Assembly: GCF_036053395.1 (NCBI RefSeq)
Contig: NZ_CP107942.1
Coordinates: 6,838,501-6,902,500, forward strand
Direction: 5' to 3'
Source: Actinoplanes sp. NBC_00393
GTDB lineage: Bacteria > Actinomycetota > Actinomycetes > Mycobacteriales > Micromonosporaceae
Length of the DNA: 64,000 bases
Every line of letters starts with the position of its first letter. Positions within the stretch are counted from its first letter, which is position 1. This document shows positions 5,112-64,000 of this stretch, piece by piece. Position numbers and translations under genes: made by a program. The notes under the pieces were generated by a model that ran no database searches, was not told where the DNA came from, and saw only the letters and a list, made by a program, of their open reading frames with translations.

Positions 5112-8100
5112 ATGCCGACACGGTGGCCCGCCGCCCTCTTCGGCGCCTGGATGGCGGTGCTCGCCCTCGTCGTGGCCCTGCAGCCCGGCCTGGAGATTCC
5201 GCTGCGCCTGATCGCCGGGGGATCCACGGTCGCGGTGATGGCCGTCGGAATCCGCCGCAGCCGGCCCGACGACGTACGCCCATGGTGGCTGCTCGCCGCC
5301 GCGGTGGCCCTCTCCGCCGCCGGTGGCGCCGCGTCCGAGGCGCCGTCCTTCATCACGAACTGGCTGCTCTGGCTGGAACCGGCCGGCACCGCTCTGCTGC
5401 TGCTCGCGTACGTGATCCTGGCTGTCGCCCTGGCCGGCTTCGTCAGCCGCCGCACCAACTCCGCCCGGGACCACGCCGGCCTGCTGGACGCTCTCACCGT
5501 CACCTCCGGGGTGGCGCTGCTGATCTGGACGTTCGTGATCGGGCCGCGGGTGGAGGGCTCGGTCGGCGACGGCTGGACCGGCCTGGCCATGCCGGTGGCC
5601 GACCTGCTCTGCCTCGGCCTGCTGATCCGGCTGGCCACCATGCCCGGCCGGCTCGTCGCGCCCGGGCACTGGCTCGGCGCCGGCGTGTTCGCGATGCTGG
5701 TCGCCGACGTGGCCCGCCAGCCGGTGCTCGGTCACCTCGCCTTCTACGCTGCCGCCGGGCTGGCCGCGCTGATCCCGTCGATGGCCGAACTGACCCGCCC
5801 GTCCGAGGTCCCGCCTTCCGAGACCAGCCGGAGCCGGCTCGCGCTGCTCGCCGTGGCGGCGCTGGTCGCGCCGACCGTGCTGGTGGCCAAGATGTTCCGG
5901 GACGGGCAGGTCGCCGGCCTGACCACGGTGGCCGCGCTGAGCATGCTGATGCTGTTGCTGGTGCTGGCCCGGATGGCCGGCATCATGACCAGTCACCGGC
6001 AGGCGATGGCCCGGGAACGGGCCCTGCGCGGGGCGTCCGCGGCGCTGGTCTCGGCAGTCGACGCCGAGGCCGTCGGACTCGCGGTACGCACGGCGGTCGC
6101 CCAGCTTCTCCCCGGCGACGTGCCGCACGGGGTGGTGCTCGCGATCGCGATCACCCAGGTCGAGCCGCAGTCGCCGGAGGCCGTCGCGCAGGCGGCCGTG
6201 GACCGGGCCACCGGTACGGCCGCCCGGCTGGTCACCACCCGCGACGTGGACTGGGCCGTCGCGGTACGCCTCACCCAGTTCACCAAGACGCTGCGCTGCC
6301 CGATGGTGCTCATCGACCGTCCCGGCGGCGACCCGCTCGTCGGTGTCCTGCACGTCGGCGCCCCGACCTGGGCACTGCTCGAGCTGCAACGGTCGGTGGA
6401 GGTGCTGGCCGGCCAGGTCGCCCTCGCGCTGGAACGGATCGCGCTCGGTCACGAGGTGGCCCGGCGCAACAGCGAGACCTACTTCCGCACCCTGATCCAG
6501 AACACCGCGGATGTCATCCTGATCGTCGACGAGCAGGACCGGATCCGGTACGCGAGCCCGTCCGCGGTCGGCGTGTTCGGCGGCGACCCGACCGGCGCCG
6601 AACTGCCCGAGGTGATCCACCCCGGCGAACGCAACCGGCTGGCCGAGGTGCTGACCGCGGTCCGCAGCGGCGACCAGTCGCAGGAGCAGCTCGACTTCCG
6701 GGCCCGCGGGAACCGGCGTACCGAGGTGCTCCTGGAACTGCACTGCCGGGACCTGCGGGCCGAACCGACCGTGGCCGGGCTGGTCATCACCATGCGGGAC
6801 GTCACCGAGCAGCGCCGGCTCGAGCAGGAACTCATCCACCAGGCGTTCCACGACGCGATGACCGGGCTGGCGAACCGGGTGCTCTTCAACGACCGCCTCA
6901 AGCACGCCCTGGCCCGCGGCGCCCGGGACGGTTCAGTGGTAGGTGTCCTCTTCATCGACCTGGACGACTTCAAGATCGTCAACGACACGCTGGGCCACGC
7001 GGTCGGCGACCAACTGCTGATCGAGGTCGCCAACCGGATCGCCGGCGCGCTGCGGGCCGACGACACCGCGGCCCGGCTCGGCGGTGACGAGTTCGCCGCC
7101 CTGGTGGAGAACGTCAACGACCCGGGCGCGGTCGAGGAGACCGCCAACCGGATCCTGGCCGCCCTGGCCCCGCCGATCATGACCGACGCCAAGCCGCTGC
7201 ACGCGGTCGCCAGCATCGGCATCACCACCACCCCCGAGGCGAACGACGCCGACGAACTGCTCCGGCAGGCCGACCTGGCCCTGTACGTGGCCAAGGGCGC
7301 CGGCAAGAACCAGTGGCGCCGCTACCAGGCGCGCCTGCACAACGAGATGGTGGAACGGCTGGAGCTGCGCTCGGCGCTCGACCACGCGGTGAACGAGGGC
7401 CATTTCCTGCTGCACTACCAGCCGATCGTCGACCTGGCGTCCGGGATGGCGGCCGGCTTCGAGGCGCTGGTCCGCTGGCACCACCCGAAGCACGGCGTGA
7501 TCACGCCGGACCAGTTCATCGAGGTGGCCGAGGAGAGCGGCCTGATCGTGCCGATGGGCCGCTGGGTGCTGGAGGAGGCGCTGCGCACCGTCGCCGAGTG
7601 GCGGCGCATCCTGCCGCCGGGCCAAGCTCCGTACGTGAGCGTCAACGTCTCCGTCCGGCAGTTCCGGGAGAGCGGGTTCCTCGACCAGGTGCGCAACGCG
7701 CTGCAGCACACCGGGGTGCCACCGCAGGGCCTGATGCTGGAGATCACCGAGACGATGCTGGTCAAGGACGACGAGCAGGTCTGGACCAACCTCGCCACGC
7801 TGCGCGAGATGGGCATCCGCATCGCCATCGACGACTTCGGCACCGGGTACTCGTCGCTCGCCTACCTTCGCCAGCGCCCGATCGACATCGTGAAGATCGA
7901 CAAGACGTTCATCGACGACATGGTCACCAGCCAGCAGCCGTTGGCGCTGGTCAGCGGCATCGTCAGCCTGGCCCAGTCGCTCGGCCTGACCGTGGTCGCC
8001 GAGGGCATCGAAAGCACCACCCACCGCGAGCTGCTGGTCCGGATGGGCTGCCCCCTGGGCCAGGGCTACCTCTTCTCCAGCCCGCTGGGCCCCACCGAGG

Positions 8101-8141
8101 TCCTGGCCTGGATGCGCGGCCCCCAGCCCCTCGCCGTCTGA
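5112..8141 (+). CDS. Membrane PAS-GGDEF-EAL cyclic-di-GMP protein
   Basis: 1009 residues. The N-terminal ~300 residues hold about eight to ten membrane segments, then a GAF-like stretch, a PAS domain (TYFRTLIQNTADVILIVD), a GGDEF domain and an EAL domain. The cyclase site is intact (RLGGDEFAAL) with an inhibitory I-site RxxD (RADD) five residues before it. The EAL site is also intact: FEALVRW, VNVSVRQF, EITETML, the DDFGTGYSS loop, KIDKTF and VVAEGIES. Both synthesis and hydrolysis of c-di-GMP are therefore possible; which dominates cannot be read. ATG 5112 is preceded by GGGAGGGAG. Confidence 0.93.
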   Translation: MPTRWPAALFGAWMAVLALVVALQPGLEIPLRLIAGGSTVAVMAVGIRRSRPDDVRPWWLLAAAVALSAAGGAASEAPSFITNWLLWLEPAGTALLLLAYVILAVALAGFVSRRTNSARDHAGLLDALTVTSGVALLIWTFVIGPRVEGSVGDGWTGLAMPVADLLCLGLLIRLATMPGRLVAPGHWLGAGVFAMLVADVARQPVLGHLAFYAAAGLAALIPSMAELTRPSEVPPSETSRSRLALLAVAALVAPTVLVAKMFRDGQVAGLTTVAALSMLMLLLVLARMAGIMTSHRQAMARERALRGASAALVSAVDAEAVGLAVRTAVAQLLPGDVPHGVVLAIAITQVEPQSPEAVAQAAVDRATGTAARLVTTRDVDWAVAVRLTQFTKTLRCPMVLIDRPGGDPLVGVLHVGAPTWALLELQRSVEVLAGQVALALERIALGHEVARRNSETYFRTLIQNTADVILIVDEQDRIRYASPSAVGVFGGDPTGAELPEVIHPGERNRLAEVLTAVRSGDQSQEQLDFRARGNRRTEVLLELHCRDLRAEPTVAGLVITMRDVTEQRRLEQELIHQAFHDAMTGLANRVLFNDRLKHALARGARDGSVVGVLFIDLDDFKIVNDTLGHAVGDQLLIEVANRIAGALRADDTAARLGGDEFAALVENVNDPGAVEETANRILAALAPPIMTDAKPLHAVASIGITTTPEANDADELLRQADLALYVAKGAGKNQWRRYQARLHNEMVERLELRSALDHAVNEGHFLLHYQPIVDLASGMAAGFEALVRWHHPKHGVITPDQFIEVAEESGLIVPMGRWVLEEALRTVAEWRRILPPGQAPYVSVNVSVRQFRESGFLDQVRNALQHTGVPPQGLMLEITETMLVKDDEQVWTNLATLREMGIRIAIDDFGTGYSSLAYLRQRPIDIVKIDKTFIDDMVTSQQPLALVSGIVSLAQSLGLTVVAEGIESTTHRELLVRMGCPLGQGYLFSSPLGPTEVLAWMRGPQPLAV

Positions 8142-8317
8142 CCGCCGCCGCGCGCCCTCGCCGCCCGGCTTCGTTGTCGGCGGGCCTTTGCCCGGTCTCC
8201 ACGTGCCGTTTCCCGGCGGGGGCGCTGGGGCCTGGACCACCTGAGTGGTGGCTTCGTAGTGCAGGGAGGTGTAGCTGGGTTTGGGGGCGGCGTCGCGCGT
8301 ACCGGAAATGGTGGGAT

Positions 8318-9385
8318 TCAGTAGGGGTTTCCGGTGCCGGGCAGGCGGCCTCGCAGGAGACCGCCCATGCGGCCGGGCAGGTCGGGGTCGGCGCGGAGCG
8401 GCGGGCTGTCGGTGTGAGCGCGGCCGGCCAGGCCCGCGACCAGCTCGCGCAGCGCGGCCACCGCATCGGTCTGCGGGCGCCAGCCCAGCTCGGCCGCCGC
8501 ACGGTCGCAGCTCATCAGCGGCGCTTTCAGCGCCAGCCGGACCCAACCCCGATCCACCGGCTGCAGCCGCAACCACCAGCTGAGCGCGGCGGCGCCCTCG
8601 AGCAGAAGACCAGGAACAGGCAGGGGTACGCCGTGGAAAGCGTCCCCGACCACCCGCGGATCGAGCACCGGGCCGGCCGCGATGTTGAAGGCGCCCCGCA
8701 CGTCGGCCCGGAGTGCCCGCACATAGGCGTCGGCGACGTCGTCGGCGTGCACCGCCTGCATGCGCAGACCCGGATGTTGCGGCAGCAGCGGGATCCAGCC
8801 GAAGCTGAGCAACCGGGCGGGCAGCAGCGGTCCGGCGAAGTAGCGGCCGATCTCGGTGCCGGCGTCCCGCTGGAAGATCAGGCCGGGCCGCAGCCGGACC
8901 ACCCGCAGCGTCGGGTGGTCGCTCTCGATCTCGTCGAGCATCCGTTCCACGAGTGACTTGTGGCGGCTGTAGGACGATTCCGGCACGCCCGTGCGCAACC
9001 AGGTCTCCTTGACGAACGCCCACTTCGGCCCGGGCGCGTAGACACCGACCGACGAGGCGTGCATGATCGCCGGCACGCCGGCCCGCACGACAGCCCGGAA
9101 GACGGAGCGGCTGCCCAGCACGTTCGTCCGGTACAGCCGCTGCTGGTCGTGACTCGGCTGAATCTGCCAGGCCAGGTTCACCACGGCGTCCGCGCCGGCG
9201 AAGATCTCGGCGAGGCGGTCGGTGGCGTCGTCGGCGCCTACATCGACGGTGTGCCAGGGGATGCCGGGATTGTCCGGTGCGCGGCGGGACACACCGACGG
9301 GTTCGACGTCGGGTTCGGTGGCGCGGAGGCGGCGCAACAGGGCTGTACCGGCGTTGCCGCTGGCTCCCACGATCACTACACGCAT
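8318..9385 (-). CDS. NAD-dependent epimerase/dehydratase (extended SDR)
   Basis: 355 residues. Rossmann nucleotide-binding motif VGASGNAG at residues 5-12, an NLAWQ segment after strand beta4, the catalytic serine region HASSVGVYAPG, and the YxxxK motif as YSRHK. C-terminal half matches NAD-dependent sugar epimerase/dehydratase family members. Substrate unknown. Start ATG 9385 gives the MRVVIVGASG beginning expected for the fold. The upstream 741 bp have no gene that I can support. Confidence 0.82.
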   Translation of the reverse strand: MRVVIVGASGNAGTALLRRLRATEPDVEPVGVSRRAPDNPGIPWHTVDVGADDATDRLAEIFAGADAVVNLAWQIQPSHDQQRLYRTNVLGSRSVFRAVVRAGVPAIMHASSVGVYAPGPKWAFVKETWLRTGVPESSYSRHKSLVERMLDEIESDHPTLRVVRLRPGLIFQRDAGTEIGRYFAGPLLPARLLSFGWIPLLPQHPGLRMQAVHADDVADAYVRALRADVRGAFNIAAGPVLDPRVVGDAFHGVPLPVPGLLLEGAAALSWWLRLQPVDRGWVRLALKAPLMSCDRAAAELGWRPQTDAVAALRELVAGLAGRAHTDSPPLRADPDLPGRMGGLLRGRLPGTGNPY

Positions 9386-10902: not shown

Positions 10903-10990
10903 CCCGCTATGCGCCCAGGTTCGACTCCAGTCCCGCTATCTGCCCAGGTTCGCCTCTCGGCGCGCTATCTGCCCAGGTTCCACTCCAGGC
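10903..10990. repeat. Three degenerate 29-bp tandem units
   Basis: CGCTAT starts at 10905, 10934 and 10963, each followed by (CT)GCCCAGGTTC. A more divergent copy (CCGTTATCTG) may lie near 11067. The GGTTCGACTCC in the first unit resembles a tRNA T-loop, but its flanks do not pair. Confidence 0.7.
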
Positions 10991-11118
10991 GCGCCGGATA
11001 ACAGCACTTCGGCTCCACTGTCTGCGGAGATCCGGCTCCGGGCACGCTCGGACAGCGTCCAGTCCCCGTTATCTGTCGAAATCCAGCCCGGCAGGGCAGT
11101 GGCCATCTGGCGGCGCGC

Positions 11119-11184
11119 GTCTCCTTGGAACGCGCGGTCTCCTTGGAACGCGCGGTCTCCTTGGAACGCGCGGTCTCCTTGGAA
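11119..11184. repeat. 18-bp tandem repeat, 3.7 copies
   Basis: Unit GTCTCCTTGGAACGCGCG at 11119, 11137 and 11155 without a mismatch, plus a partial copy at 11173. Perfect identity suggests recent expansion by slippage. Confidence 0.92.
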
Positions 11185-11433
11185 GAGGTCAACGCCTAGG
11201 TACTGGGTGCGGTGCCGACCTGGCTTGACCGCGAAGGGCTCGGAGATTCGTGCTGCGCCAGCACCGCCACGCTGAAGGCCGTCGCCCGAACCACGAGTCG
11301 CGCCACCCCGGCGAACGGCCGCAAGGGGCCACCCACGGCGCCTGGGTTCGCCCACTGCGAACAGCACTGTCGATCAGCTGCTGCAAGGGTGTAAGCATGT
11401 AATCAAGTAATTCAAGGGTTATGGGAGGTTGGA

Positions 11434-11985
11434 ATGCGCCTTCGAGTTGCACCGCCCGGTGGGCGGTCCGAGCCACCCAACGCTGACGACGCGGCCGCCT
11501 GGGTGACCGGTGCGGTTCCGGACGGATGGTTCACCGAGCCGCCGGAAGTCGTCGTGGATCGCGACGAGATCATCATTTGGGGCCGGCTGCCACGGCCCGA
11601 ACTGGCTGCCGATGCGACCGATGCGGATCAGGCCGCTGGTCAGGCCGGGCGGATCGCCCAGTTCCGGGAGGACACCCGCGACGCCCGGATCCGGGTCGCC
11701 CGCCAGGTCGAACACCGCTACCAGCGCAAGGTCGCCTGGGGCATCCGCTGCGGAGACGCTTCCGAACTCTTCACCCACCTCGCCGCGCCGGTGATGACCC
11801 GGCTGCGCCAGCCCGAACGGCAGATCCTCGACACGCTGGTCGACTCCGGCGTGGCCCGTTCCCGCTCGGAAGCGCTGGCCTGGTGCGTGAAGCTGGTAGG
11901 CCGGCACACCGAAGACTGGCTCGGCGAGCTACGCAGTGCCATGACCAGGGTCGACGAACTACGCAGGCAGGGCCCGAACGCCTGA
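11434..11985 (+). CDS. Hypothetical protein, possible DNA-binding C-terminus
   Basis: 183 residues, not recognised. Codon use looks genuine and GGGAGG lies about 6 nt before ATG 11434. The N-terminus is acidic and Pro-rich (VVVDRDEIIIWGRLP), the middle is charged and helical, and the end contains RQILDTLVDSGVARSRSEALAWCVKLV, which looks like a ribbon-helix-helix-type segment, by eye only. A 12-bp hairpin terminator follows 26 bp after the stop. It is monocistronic in a repeat-rich area. No function is assigned. Confidence 0.65.
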   Translation: MRLRVAPPGGRSEPPNADDAAAWVTGAVPDGWFTEPPEVVVDRDEIIIWGRLPRPELAADATDADQAAGQAGRIAQFREDTRDARIRVARQVEHRYQRKVAWGIRCGDASELFTHLAAPVMTRLRQPERQILDTLVDSGVARSRSEALAWCVKLVGRHTEDWLGELRSAMTRVDELRRQGPNA

Positions 11986-12011
11986 CCTGCCGGCATCGAG
12001 CAGAGCGGAAA

Positions 12012-12039
12012 CGCCGGCTACCGCCTTCGGTAGCCGGCG
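12012..12039 (+). terminator. Hairpin terminator after the 11434 gene
   Basis: Perfect 12-bp stem CGCCGGCTACCG / CGGTAGCCGGCG with a CCTT loop, starting 26 nt after the stop codon. No T-tract. Confidence 0.75.
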
Positions 12040-12149
12040 CCTCCGACGGCCCCGCAAGACTCCTGACAAGCCGACGGAAAGTCACGGCCCCGCGGGACCC
12101 CTGACAAGCCGACGGAAAGTCGCGGGCAGGAACGGGGCAGCGTCAGGCA

Positions 12150-12320
12150 GCACCGAGGGGTTCGGCGAAGCTCGGACGAGCAGGAACCCAGGTGACGCCG
12201 ACAGGCTCGGCGAAGCTCGGGGCCAGCAGGAACCCAGAAAGCGCCGACAGGCTCGGCGAAGCTCGGGGCCAGCAGGAACCCAGGTAACGCCGACAGGCTC
12301 GGCGAAGCTCGGGCGAGCGG
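12150..12320. repeat. 45-46-bp tandem repeats
   Basis: TCGGCGAAGCTCGG begins at 12162, 12207, 12253 and 12299, with the linker (G)CCAGCAGGAACCCAG between copies. Copies two and three are nearly identical. Confidence 0.85.
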
Positions 12321-13536: not shown

Positions 13537-13690
13537 AAGGCCAAGGTGGCGAGCCCAGGGCGACAAGGCTCAGGTGGCAAGCCCAAGGTGAAAAGGCCCA
13601 GGTGGCGAGGCCCAGGTGGCGAGCCCAGGTTGAAAAGGCCCAGGTGGCGAGCCCAGGATGGCAAGGCCAAAATGGCGACGCCAAGGTGCC
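13537..13690. repeat. Degenerate GGTGGCGAGCCCAGG repeat array
   Basis: At least five imperfect copies of (CA)GGTGGCGAGCCCAGG, spaced irregularly by AAGG/TGAAAAGGC linkers, directly after the DUF3037 gene and before the convergent transglutaminase gene. Reading frames across it give Gly/Ala/Trp or Lys/Arg repeats and are not convincing genes. Confidence 0.8.
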
Positions 13691-62374: not shown

Positions 62375-63325
62375 GTGACTGACTTCGCAATTCGATACGG
62401 CGAGCACGTGACCCGGGCCCGCCGGGACGGCCGTCCGGTGGTGGCCCTGGAGAGCACGATCATCTCGCACGGCCTGCCGCACCCCGACAACCTCCGGGTG
62501 GCGCGCGAGATCGAGCAGACCGTCCGGGACAACGGGGCGGTGCCGGCGACCATCGGCATGATCGGCGGAGAGGTCGTCGTCGGCCTGGACGACGCGCAGG
62601 TCGAGCACCTGGCGCTCGCCGGGGACGTGGCGAAACTCTCGGTCCGGGATCTCGCGATCGCCGCGGCCCGGCGTGCCGACGGCGCCACCACGGTCGCCGC
62701 CACCAGCGCGATCGCGGACGCCGCGGGCATCGGGGTGTTCGCCACCGGTGGGCTGGGCGGGGTGCACCGGGAGGCGAACATCACGTACGACGAGTCGGCC
62801 GACCTGACCGCGCTGGCGCGGACGCCGATCGTGGTGGTCTGCGCCGGCGTCAAGTCGATCCTCGACGTGGGCGCCACCCTGGAGCGGATGGAGACCCTCG
62901 GTGTGTCGGTGGCCGGTTACCGGACCCGGCGGTTCCCCGGCTTCTTCATCACCGACGGCGGCTTCGACGTCGACTGGGAGCTGGACTCGCCGGAGCAGGT
63001 GGCCGACTTCATCCGGGCCCGCGCCGAGCAGGGCGTCAGCGAGGGCGCCCTGGTGCTGGCGAACCCGCTGCCCACCGACGAGCAGCTCGACCCGGGGCTG
63101 CACGACCGGACCCTGGCGGCCGGACTGAACCTGCTGGCCGAGCAGAACATCACCGGCAAGGCGGTCACCCCCTTCCTGCTGGGCCACTTCCACGCCAGCA
63201 CCGAGGGCAAGAGCCTCGAGGTGAACATCCGGATCATCCTGCGCAACTCCGCCCTGGCGGCCCGGATCGCGGCGGCGGCCAACACCGGCGCGGCCGCGCC
63301 GGTGGGCTTCGCAGCGCCCGCATGA
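62375..63325 (+). CDS. psuG: Pseudouridine-5'-phosphate glycosidase
   Basis: 316 residues. Splits pseudouridine 5'-phosphate into uracil and ribose 5-phosphate. Catalytic Glu26 in VVALESTIISHGLPHP, GGLGGVHREAN, the Lys in VVVCAGVKSILDVGATLE (Schiff-base lysine of the family) and GKAVTPFLLGHFHAST are present. Its last codons end in the 15-bp repeat, and the stop overlaps the mini-ORF ATG. Confidence 0.94.
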   Translation: MTDFAIRYGEHVTRARRDGRPVVALESTIISHGLPHPDNLRVAREIEQTVRDNGAVPATIGMIGGEVVVGLDDAQVEHLALAGDVAKLSVRDLAIAAARRADGATTVAATSAIADAAGIGVFATGGLGGVHREANITYDESADLTALARTPIVVVCAGVKSILDVGATLERMETLGVSVAGYRTRRFPGFFITDGGFDVDWELDSPEQVADFIRARAEQGVSEGALVLANPLPTDEQLDPGLHDRTLAAGLNLLAEQNITGKAVTPFLLGHFHASTEGKSLEVNIRIILRNSALAARIAAAANTGAAAPVGFAAPA

Positions 63326-63380
63326 ACAGCGCCCGCATGAACAGCGCCCGCATGGACAGCGCCCGTATGAACAGCGCGCG
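63312..63380. repeat. 15-bp tandem repeat at the psuG-psuK junction
   Basis: Unit ATGAACAGCGCCCGC with few changes, about four copies at 63322-63381, preceded by a matching CAGCGCCCGC in the psuG end. Confidence 0.9.
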
Positions 63381-63399
63381 CGTGGGCAACTCACGATGA
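63322..63399 (+). CDS. 25-codon repeat mini-ORF linking psuG and psuK
   Basis: ATG 63322 overlaps the psuG stop (ATGA) and its own TGA (63397-63399) overlaps the psuK ATG 63396 (ATGA). It reads MNSAR, MNSAR, MDSAR, MNSAR, then VGNSR. It comes from a 15-bp tandem repeat, so every unit opens with an ATG. It may be a translated coupling peptide or just a repeat expansion that moved psuK away from psuG. Expression is unproven. Confidence 0.55.
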   Translation: MNSARMNSARMDSARMNSARVGNSR

Positions 63400-64000
63400 T
63401 CGTTGTCGGGGACCTGGTCACGGACGTCCTGGTCGAGCAGAACGGGCCGATCCAGGTCGGATCGGACACCGATGCCGCGATCCGGGTCGCCGGCGGAGGT
63501 CAGGCCGCGAACACGGCGGCCTGGCTGGCCCACGCCCGGCAGCCGGTGACGCTGGTCGCCGCGGTCGGTGACGACGCGGCCGGCCGGGAGCGGGTCGCGG
63601 AACTCGAGTCGGTGGGCGTGCGCTGCGCGGTGCACGTCCACCCGGGCGCCGTCACCGGCAGCGTGGTGGTCCTCACCGGCCCGGCCGAGCGCACCATGAT
63701 CACTGATCGGGGCGCCTCGCTGCTGCTCGACCCGGACCACGTGACCGCGGTGGTCTCCGCCGCTCCGGCCGGCAGCCACCTGCACCTCTCCGGCTATCCG
63801 CTGCTGCATGCCGGGTCACGTCCGGCGGGCCTCGCGGCCCTCACCGCCGCGGCAGGACGAGGAATCACGGTGAGCGTCGATGCGGCCTCGGCAGCCCCGT
63901 TGCGCGCCGCCGGTGCGCAGGCTTTCCTGGATTGGGTACGCGACGCCGACCTGCTCCTGTGCAACCAGGACGAGGCCGACGTGCTCGCCGGTCCGGGCAG
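63396..64000 (+). CDS. psuK: PfkB-family kinase, likely pseudouridine kinase (cut by right edge)
   Basis: First 201 residues of a ribokinase-like kinase: IVVVGDLVTDVLV start, GGGQAANTAAWLAH (substrate/Gly-rich motif), LVAAVGDDAAGRE and LLLCNQDEADVL. Position after psuG indicates phosphorylation of pseudouridine to feed PsuG. The C-terminal ATP-binding DTxGAGD motif lies outside the window. Confidence 0.82.
   Translation, partial: MIVVGDLVTDVLVEQNGPIQVGSDTDAAIRVAGGGQAANTAAWLAHARQPVTLVAAVGDDAAGRERVAELESVGVRCAVHVHPGAVTGSVVVLTGPAERTMITDRGASLLLDPDHVTAVVSAAPAGSHLHLSGYPLLHAGSRPAGLAALTAAAGRGITVSVDAASAAPLRAAGAQAFLDWVRDADLLLCNQDEADVLAGPG

Follow-up and report, generated by a model that had tools for sequence, protein, structure and literature searches.

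The window examined here, a contiguous stretch of 64,000 nucleotides, belongs to the genome of a soil-dwelling Actinoplanes, assembled as one contig of 11,433,213 bases. Its closest named relatives are all Actinoplanes, and in the nearest of these, A. aureus NEAU-A11, psuG is 94% identical. Two plus-strand genes lie at the end of the window. The upstream gene, psuG (62375..63325), codes for a pseudouridine-5'-phosphate glycosidase of 316 aa, which matches Pfam family PF04227 (E 4e-113) as well as the solved pseudouridine-5'-phosphate glycosidases (E 5e-73). The downstream gene, psuK (63396..64000), continues beyond the window end; its complete ORF (L039:3397-4272) codes for 291 aa in all, and the part within the window matches PF00294 (E 2e-22). 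The psuK product is surely a PfkB-family kinase. Its designation as a pseudouridine kinase is only presumptive, since the match to the solved pseudouridine kinase (E 1.8e-5) is weaker than that to other sugar kinases (E 2.5e-15).

Between the two genes, the ORF list contains a bridging mini-ORF of 25 codons, (MNSAR)n (63322..63399, plus strand), with the translation MNSARMNSARMDSARMNSARVGNSR and no match in Pfam. psuG, the mini-ORF and psuK occupy three different reading frames. The mini-ORF ATG (63322-63324) overlaps the psuG TGA (63323-63325), and the mini-ORF TGA (63397-63399) overlaps the psuK ATG (63396-63398), such that each joint is an ATGA with a -4 overlap (63322..63325 and 63396..63399, both on the plus strand). 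The first-pass annotation had described a 25-codon frame joined by ATGA to both the psuG stop and the psuK start, and inspection of the sequence confirms this arrangement.

The mini-ORF coincides with a tandem array, which Tandem Repeats Finder (TRF) places at 63312-63381 with a period of 15, 4.7 copies, 90% matches and a score of 119. Counted by units, the series begins with the last 15 nt of psuG itself (unit 0, 63311..63325, plus strand; four codons and the stop) and proceeds through four 15-nt copies to a final 14-nt copy ending in the psuK ATGA (63326..63399, plus strand). In order from the psuG end, the units read GCAGCGCCCGCATGA (the last four psuG codons and stop), ACAGCGCCCGCATGA, ACAGCGCCCGCATGG, ACAGCGCCCGTATGA and ACAGCGCGCGCGTGG, and the last unit, containing the psuK start, reads GCAACTCACGATGA. 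The repeat unit is the final 15 nt of psuG with one base changed, and intact copies therefore bring along the stop/start module. Tandem copying of the psuG/psuK overlap, ATGA module included, thus gave rise to the array. Each unit had been thought to add an in-frame ATG; four such ATGs are indeed present (63322, 63337, 63352 and 63367), but the fifth start is a GTG (63382). The psuG-frame TGA is turned into TGG in units 2 and 4, and the stops left in this frame between the two genes are at 63338 and 63368. The psuK frame contains neither start nor stop from 63324 to 63395. A longer psuK begun within the array is thereby ruled out, and an in-frame psuK extension of the type seen in G015 and L090 is unavailable here.

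A dispersed element was rejected as the source of the array: a pattern of two units, allowing as many as 3 mismatches, finds 5 matches in the 11.43 Mb genome, 4 of them in the array and one isolated elsewhere with 3 mismatches. An assembly artefact seems unlikely as well, as assemblies of other species show arrays at the psuG-psuK joint as well. In the nearest relative (L010/L045) there is just a short extra intergenic stretch, which by eye resembles that species' own psuG end and could perhaps represent the seed of the amplification. G020 (L090) carries an array made of the last 15 nt of its own psuG, GCCGCGCCCGCGTGA, with a period of 15, 5.8 copies and a score of 146. In this species, the start lying over the psuG stop shares the psuK frame, and the array would be translated as an N-terminal (VSRAR)n extension. 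Many array-free species separate L090 from the window species on the tree, and the two amplifications are therefore taken as independent.

The psuK start of the window lies 70 nt beyond the psuG stop. Its pairing with the ribosomal RNA end amounts to -2.9 kcal/mol, as compared to a median of -3.6 for 1000 random positions, the best 5% of which are below -9.5. By this measure, the window psuK has no Shine-Dalgarno match. The 70-nt distance, together with the weak pairing, predicts that psuK would be poorly translated without the mini-ORF; the weak pairing is indirect support for a dependence of psuK on the frame before it. According to PMC10666635, reinitiation drops steeply with distance, and about 20 nt nearly abolishes coupling; -4 is the commonest overlap, followed by -1 and -8. 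In two E. coli pairs reported there, 15 nt from the end of the upstream gene were enough, and one of these pairs could also bridge a 15-nt gap.

We propose that ribosomes finishing psuG at 63323-63325 would reinitiate at the mini-ORF ATG (63322), which overlaps that stop, read the 25-codon repeat frame to its own stop at 63397-63399 and there reinitiate a second time, at the overlapping psuK ATG (63396). The mini-ORF would thus serve as a translational relay, by which psuK stays coupled to psuG across 70 nt. The relay would be preserved with any number of 15-bp units, so the coupling would survive growth of the minisatellite. Judging from sequence comparisons, we place the probability at roughly 0.6 that the mini-ORF is such a relay, derived from the amplified psuG/psuK overlap and keeping psuK coupled to psuG. 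We infer that reinitiation takes place at both joints and is kept by selection.

The psuG-psuK junction was surveyed across the family, with one genome per species, using the following samples. psuG is present in all 67 Actinoplanes genomes searched, and 66 junctions of this genus were measured; G032, whose psuK motif is masked, was dropped (by eye, its junction is CTGA). For the other genera of the family, 63 loci were submitted and 61 measured; L164, which ends before psuK, and L181, which has a variant motif, were left out. Sixty of these 63 loci were taken nearly in rank order and are not a random sample, one genus being heavily represented, and three were added separately; in the genome list behind this sample, 271 of 300 had a match. 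The psuG stop on one side and the conserved GD(L/V)(V/I)TD motif near the psuK N-terminus on the other fixed the reading frames, such that no choice of start enters.

Among the 127 junctions, 106 have an A or G before the psuG TGA, and hence a start codon over the stop, and 21 have a C (CTGA). All 106 junctions with an overlapping start provide an unbroken translation path to psuK. The overlapping start is in the psuK frame in 94 of them, every one open to psuK, and the other 12, where it is out of the psuK frame, are all complete mini-ORF relays. Eleven of the 12 relays run through one mini-ORF, whereas L160 runs through two in series, each joined by -4. The relay ends on the psuK start by a -4 overlap in ten cases and by a -8 overlap in L107. 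The relay mini-ORFs range from 5 to 27 codons; that of L104 includes 19 masked bases, which were counted as containing no stop. The psuK start has a fair to strong pairing with the ribosomal RNA end in five of the 12 relays (-8.3 to -12.2 kcal/mol in L103, L105, L142, L160 and L179), and in these the start may manage without a relay. The pairing is -5.1 to -5.7 kcal/mol in L016, L027, L093 and L110, and -1.7 and -2.1 kcal/mol in L104 and L107, respectively.

Long junctions, with at least 30 nt from the psuG stop to the motif, account for 27 of the 106, of which 17 are in the psuK frame; the two remaining frames account for 8 and 2. As a null model, the spacer interiors were resampled at random length, preserving their dinucleotide composition. 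All 27 long junctions are complete, as opposed to 11.8 expected, but much of this excess is to be expected if the overlapping codon simply is the psuK start. The out-of-frame junctions offer a fairer test, in which 12 of 12 are complete versus 5.3 expected (P 2.6e-5 if independent). The junction counts include related species; by hand-picked separate lineages, P is 2e-4 (9 junctions) or 6e-4 (8 junctions). The relay state requires at least nine changes on the FastTree tree. The earlier proposal that expansion of the repeat would keep the genes coupled thus finds support in the comparison, where the out-of-frame relays are complete beyond expectation.

The 21 CTGA junctions lack a start over the psuG stop. 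Several of them have long spacers, and tight coupling at the psuG stop is therefore not universal. When their C is read as A, a path is found in 12 of the 21, and 6 of the 9 failures are neighbouring tips of the tree. In two CTGA junctions, L111 and L030, a GTG located 0 and 3 nt past the psuG stop, respectively, opens a frame that by eye ends in a GTGA over the psuK start. These look as if a relay operated there too, and were left out of the relay count since no start lies over the psuG stop.

Two further observations concern the spacers themselves. An insert resembling GAGCGCAGCGAGG is common to L142, L160 and L179, three tree-neighbouring genomes of other family genera, and carries its own Shine-Dalgarno match and an ATGA start before psuK. 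In several Actinoplanes (L090, L094, L019, L031, L012 and L108), the open psuK frame extends back to the psuG stop or to within a few bases of it, which would give predicted N-terminal extensions that are long, species-specific and mostly repetitive.

TRF was run on junctions of at least 26 nt. Arrays with a score of at least 50 occur in six junctions, and their periods are divisible by three in all six: 15 in L009, 15/30 in L019, 18/54 in L030, 15 in L090, 24/48 in L094 and 9 in L108. A weaker period-15 array (score 43) is found in L031, and the remaining matches scoring under 50 repeat every 5 to 12 nt, for the most part not a multiple of three, and some of them lie within the psuG tail. As a background, 39 arrays (period at least 9, at least 2.8 copies, score at least 80), including that of the window, were identified in 464 kb of the host genome. 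According to a crude gene caller, 12 of these are in coding ORFs, all 12 with periods divisible by three, and 27 are elsewhere, 16 of them divisible. The 15-bp array is far beyond chance as a repeat, yet repeats are common in the host genome; the divisible-by-three periods at the joint fit translated sequence without proving it.

Other arrays of the same genome can be mentioned in this regard. The window itself has several more (periods 18, 28, 29, 38, 42, 46 and 70) at 10905-12313 and 13538-13688, outside the ORFs of the crude gene caller. On the minus strand of L197 (6807-7151), an 18-bp array of 14.2 copies forms an (MAEAAR)n frame of 112 codons. An 8-nt overlap (ATGGCTGA) joins its ATG to the stop of ORF 7138-8808; at the other end, it enters ORF 6010-6864 in a different reading frame and covers 58 nt of it. 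Here, too, a stop/start module has been amplified, but no clean relay results, which counts against the relay reading.

Copy number had been considered irrelevant to the path on the grounds that 15 is divisible by three. In idealised arrays the path is indeed kept at all 8 copy numbers examined, from 0 to 12, but divisibility is only part of the reason, as each intact unit supplies the psuG frame with a stop and the mini-ORF frame with a start, the third frame leading into psuK. Idealised arrays with one shortened unit keep the path for 14 of 15 unit lengths; we relied instead on a test with the real sequence. Of 68 one-base deletions in the real array, 40 leave a path, as do 41 of 68 two-base insertions, compared to 13% and 14%, respectively, for resampled spacers that initially had a path. 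One-base insertions and two-base deletions leave the path in 64 and 68 of 68 cases, respectively (81% and 83% in the resampled spacers). The array retains its path after many frame-breaking indels because its intact units hold both stop and start, and repeat numbers that break the frame would therefore be a weaker refutation of coupling than appears. Tentatively, the 15-bp unit may be regarded as a frame-catching cassette, in which an upstream stretch of a reportedly sufficient length is combined with a stop and a start, such that coupling survives changes in copy number and many indels. Such repeats, or repeats divisible by three, could then represent a general route to spacers, N-terminal extensions and small ORFs without an uncoupled state, a route repeated at the psuG-psuK junction of the Micromonosporaceae. 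We consider this broader view possible but doubtful.

The relay has to be weighed against a neutral origin, in which slippage copied the GC-rich psuG end as a minisatellite, the mini-ORF is a by-product and psuK starts alone. Tandem arrays are common in the host genome (the 39 in 464 kb), the nearest relative has no separate mini-ORF, and a bridging ORF is near-automatic once the frame-2 ATGA is copied in stop-poor DNA: when frame-2 spacers of the window are resampled, a fraction of 0.88 are complete. Nevertheless, we regard a purely neutral array as rather unlikely, in view of the 12 complete out-of-frame junctions against 5.3 expected, which include one -8 and one two-mini-ORF case, and of the window psuK with no Shine-Dalgarno match. 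The periods at the joint (6/6 divisible by three at a score of at least 50) point in the same direction, though 16 of the 27 arrays called noncoding are divisible likewise.

Two functional alternatives to the relay are less probable. If the array were a contingency locus, changes in copy number would tune the PsuG:PsuK ratio; tandem arrays can alter in length, and the length of the junction varies widely among species. Any copy number, however, gives an identical relay path, so little change in output is expected, and such tuning, also raised in the first-pass annotation, is unsupported and appears improbable. The mini-ORF might alternatively encode a functional peptide, as its frame is open and the differences between units include two that leave its peptide unchanged and one by which an ATG becomes a GTG. 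This suggestion of the first-pass annotation was not borne out: the peptide has no Pfam match, the bridging frames of relatives (5 to 27 codons) look unrelated by eye and differ from MNSAR in both sequence and length, and a separate frame of this kind is missing from the nearest relative. A peptide function is thus very improbable.

The distance limit given in PMC10666635 implies that inserts between coupled genes should uncouple them. The psuG-psuK joint would be a natural way round this limit, repeated within one family, in which the insert is translatable, either fused to psuK or as a relay mini-ORF. The junctions of the family form a natural set for measuring the survival of ribosomes over none, one or two extra reinitiation steps. 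By the same reading, unannotated mini-ORFs lying between the genes of an operon may in some cases serve to conduct ribosomes rather than to encode peptides.

A limited body of open-licence literature, in itself weak evidence of absence, yielded neither a psuG-psuK array nor a relay made from a copied gene end. Several known systems are nevertheless comparable. Termination-reinitiation at ATGA overlaps is the subject of PMC6728339 and PMC10666635, and -4 and -8 are among its commonest joints according to the latter. Like such junctions, both joints of the window are -4, and all 12 relays among the 127 measured junctions use -4 or -8. In addition, the upstream stretch of 15 nt reported as sufficient in PMC10666635 has the length of the psuG-psuK unit. 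Unlike the single two-gene overlaps of those pairs, the overlap is here multiplied and a mini-ORF is interposed. Bicistronic designs with a short leader ORF (PMC5995908 and PMC12548453) likewise use a short ORF to bring ribosomes to a downstream start; these are engineered and stand at the front of the transcript, whereas the psuG-psuK joint is natural and lies between two operon genes.

The closest parallel is provided by the mycobacterial interspersed repetitive units (MIRUs), which PMC12548453 describes as repeats, apparently mobile, whose insertion sites are start codons and whose ORF is coupled at -4; this coupling likely limits harm to expression, and MIRUs are found in many mycobacteria. 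Like a MIRU, the psuG-psuK array is an intergenic repeat with a short ORF that overlaps the next gene by -4 (63396-63399; also 63322-63325 at the psuG side). Unlike a MIRU, its unit is home-grown from the end of the host gene and occupies one genomic place, the pattern search giving just one isolated match outside the array. The MIRU unit comprises several tens of bases, as opposed to a period of 15 bp at psuG-psuK. The array would work on the MIRU principle, yet it is not a MIRU, as it is confined to one locus, has a 15-bp unit and is built from the host gene. The working principle of the proposed psuG-psuK relay is thus already known from MIRUs, and what differs is a self-made 15-bp unit taken from the end of the host gene.
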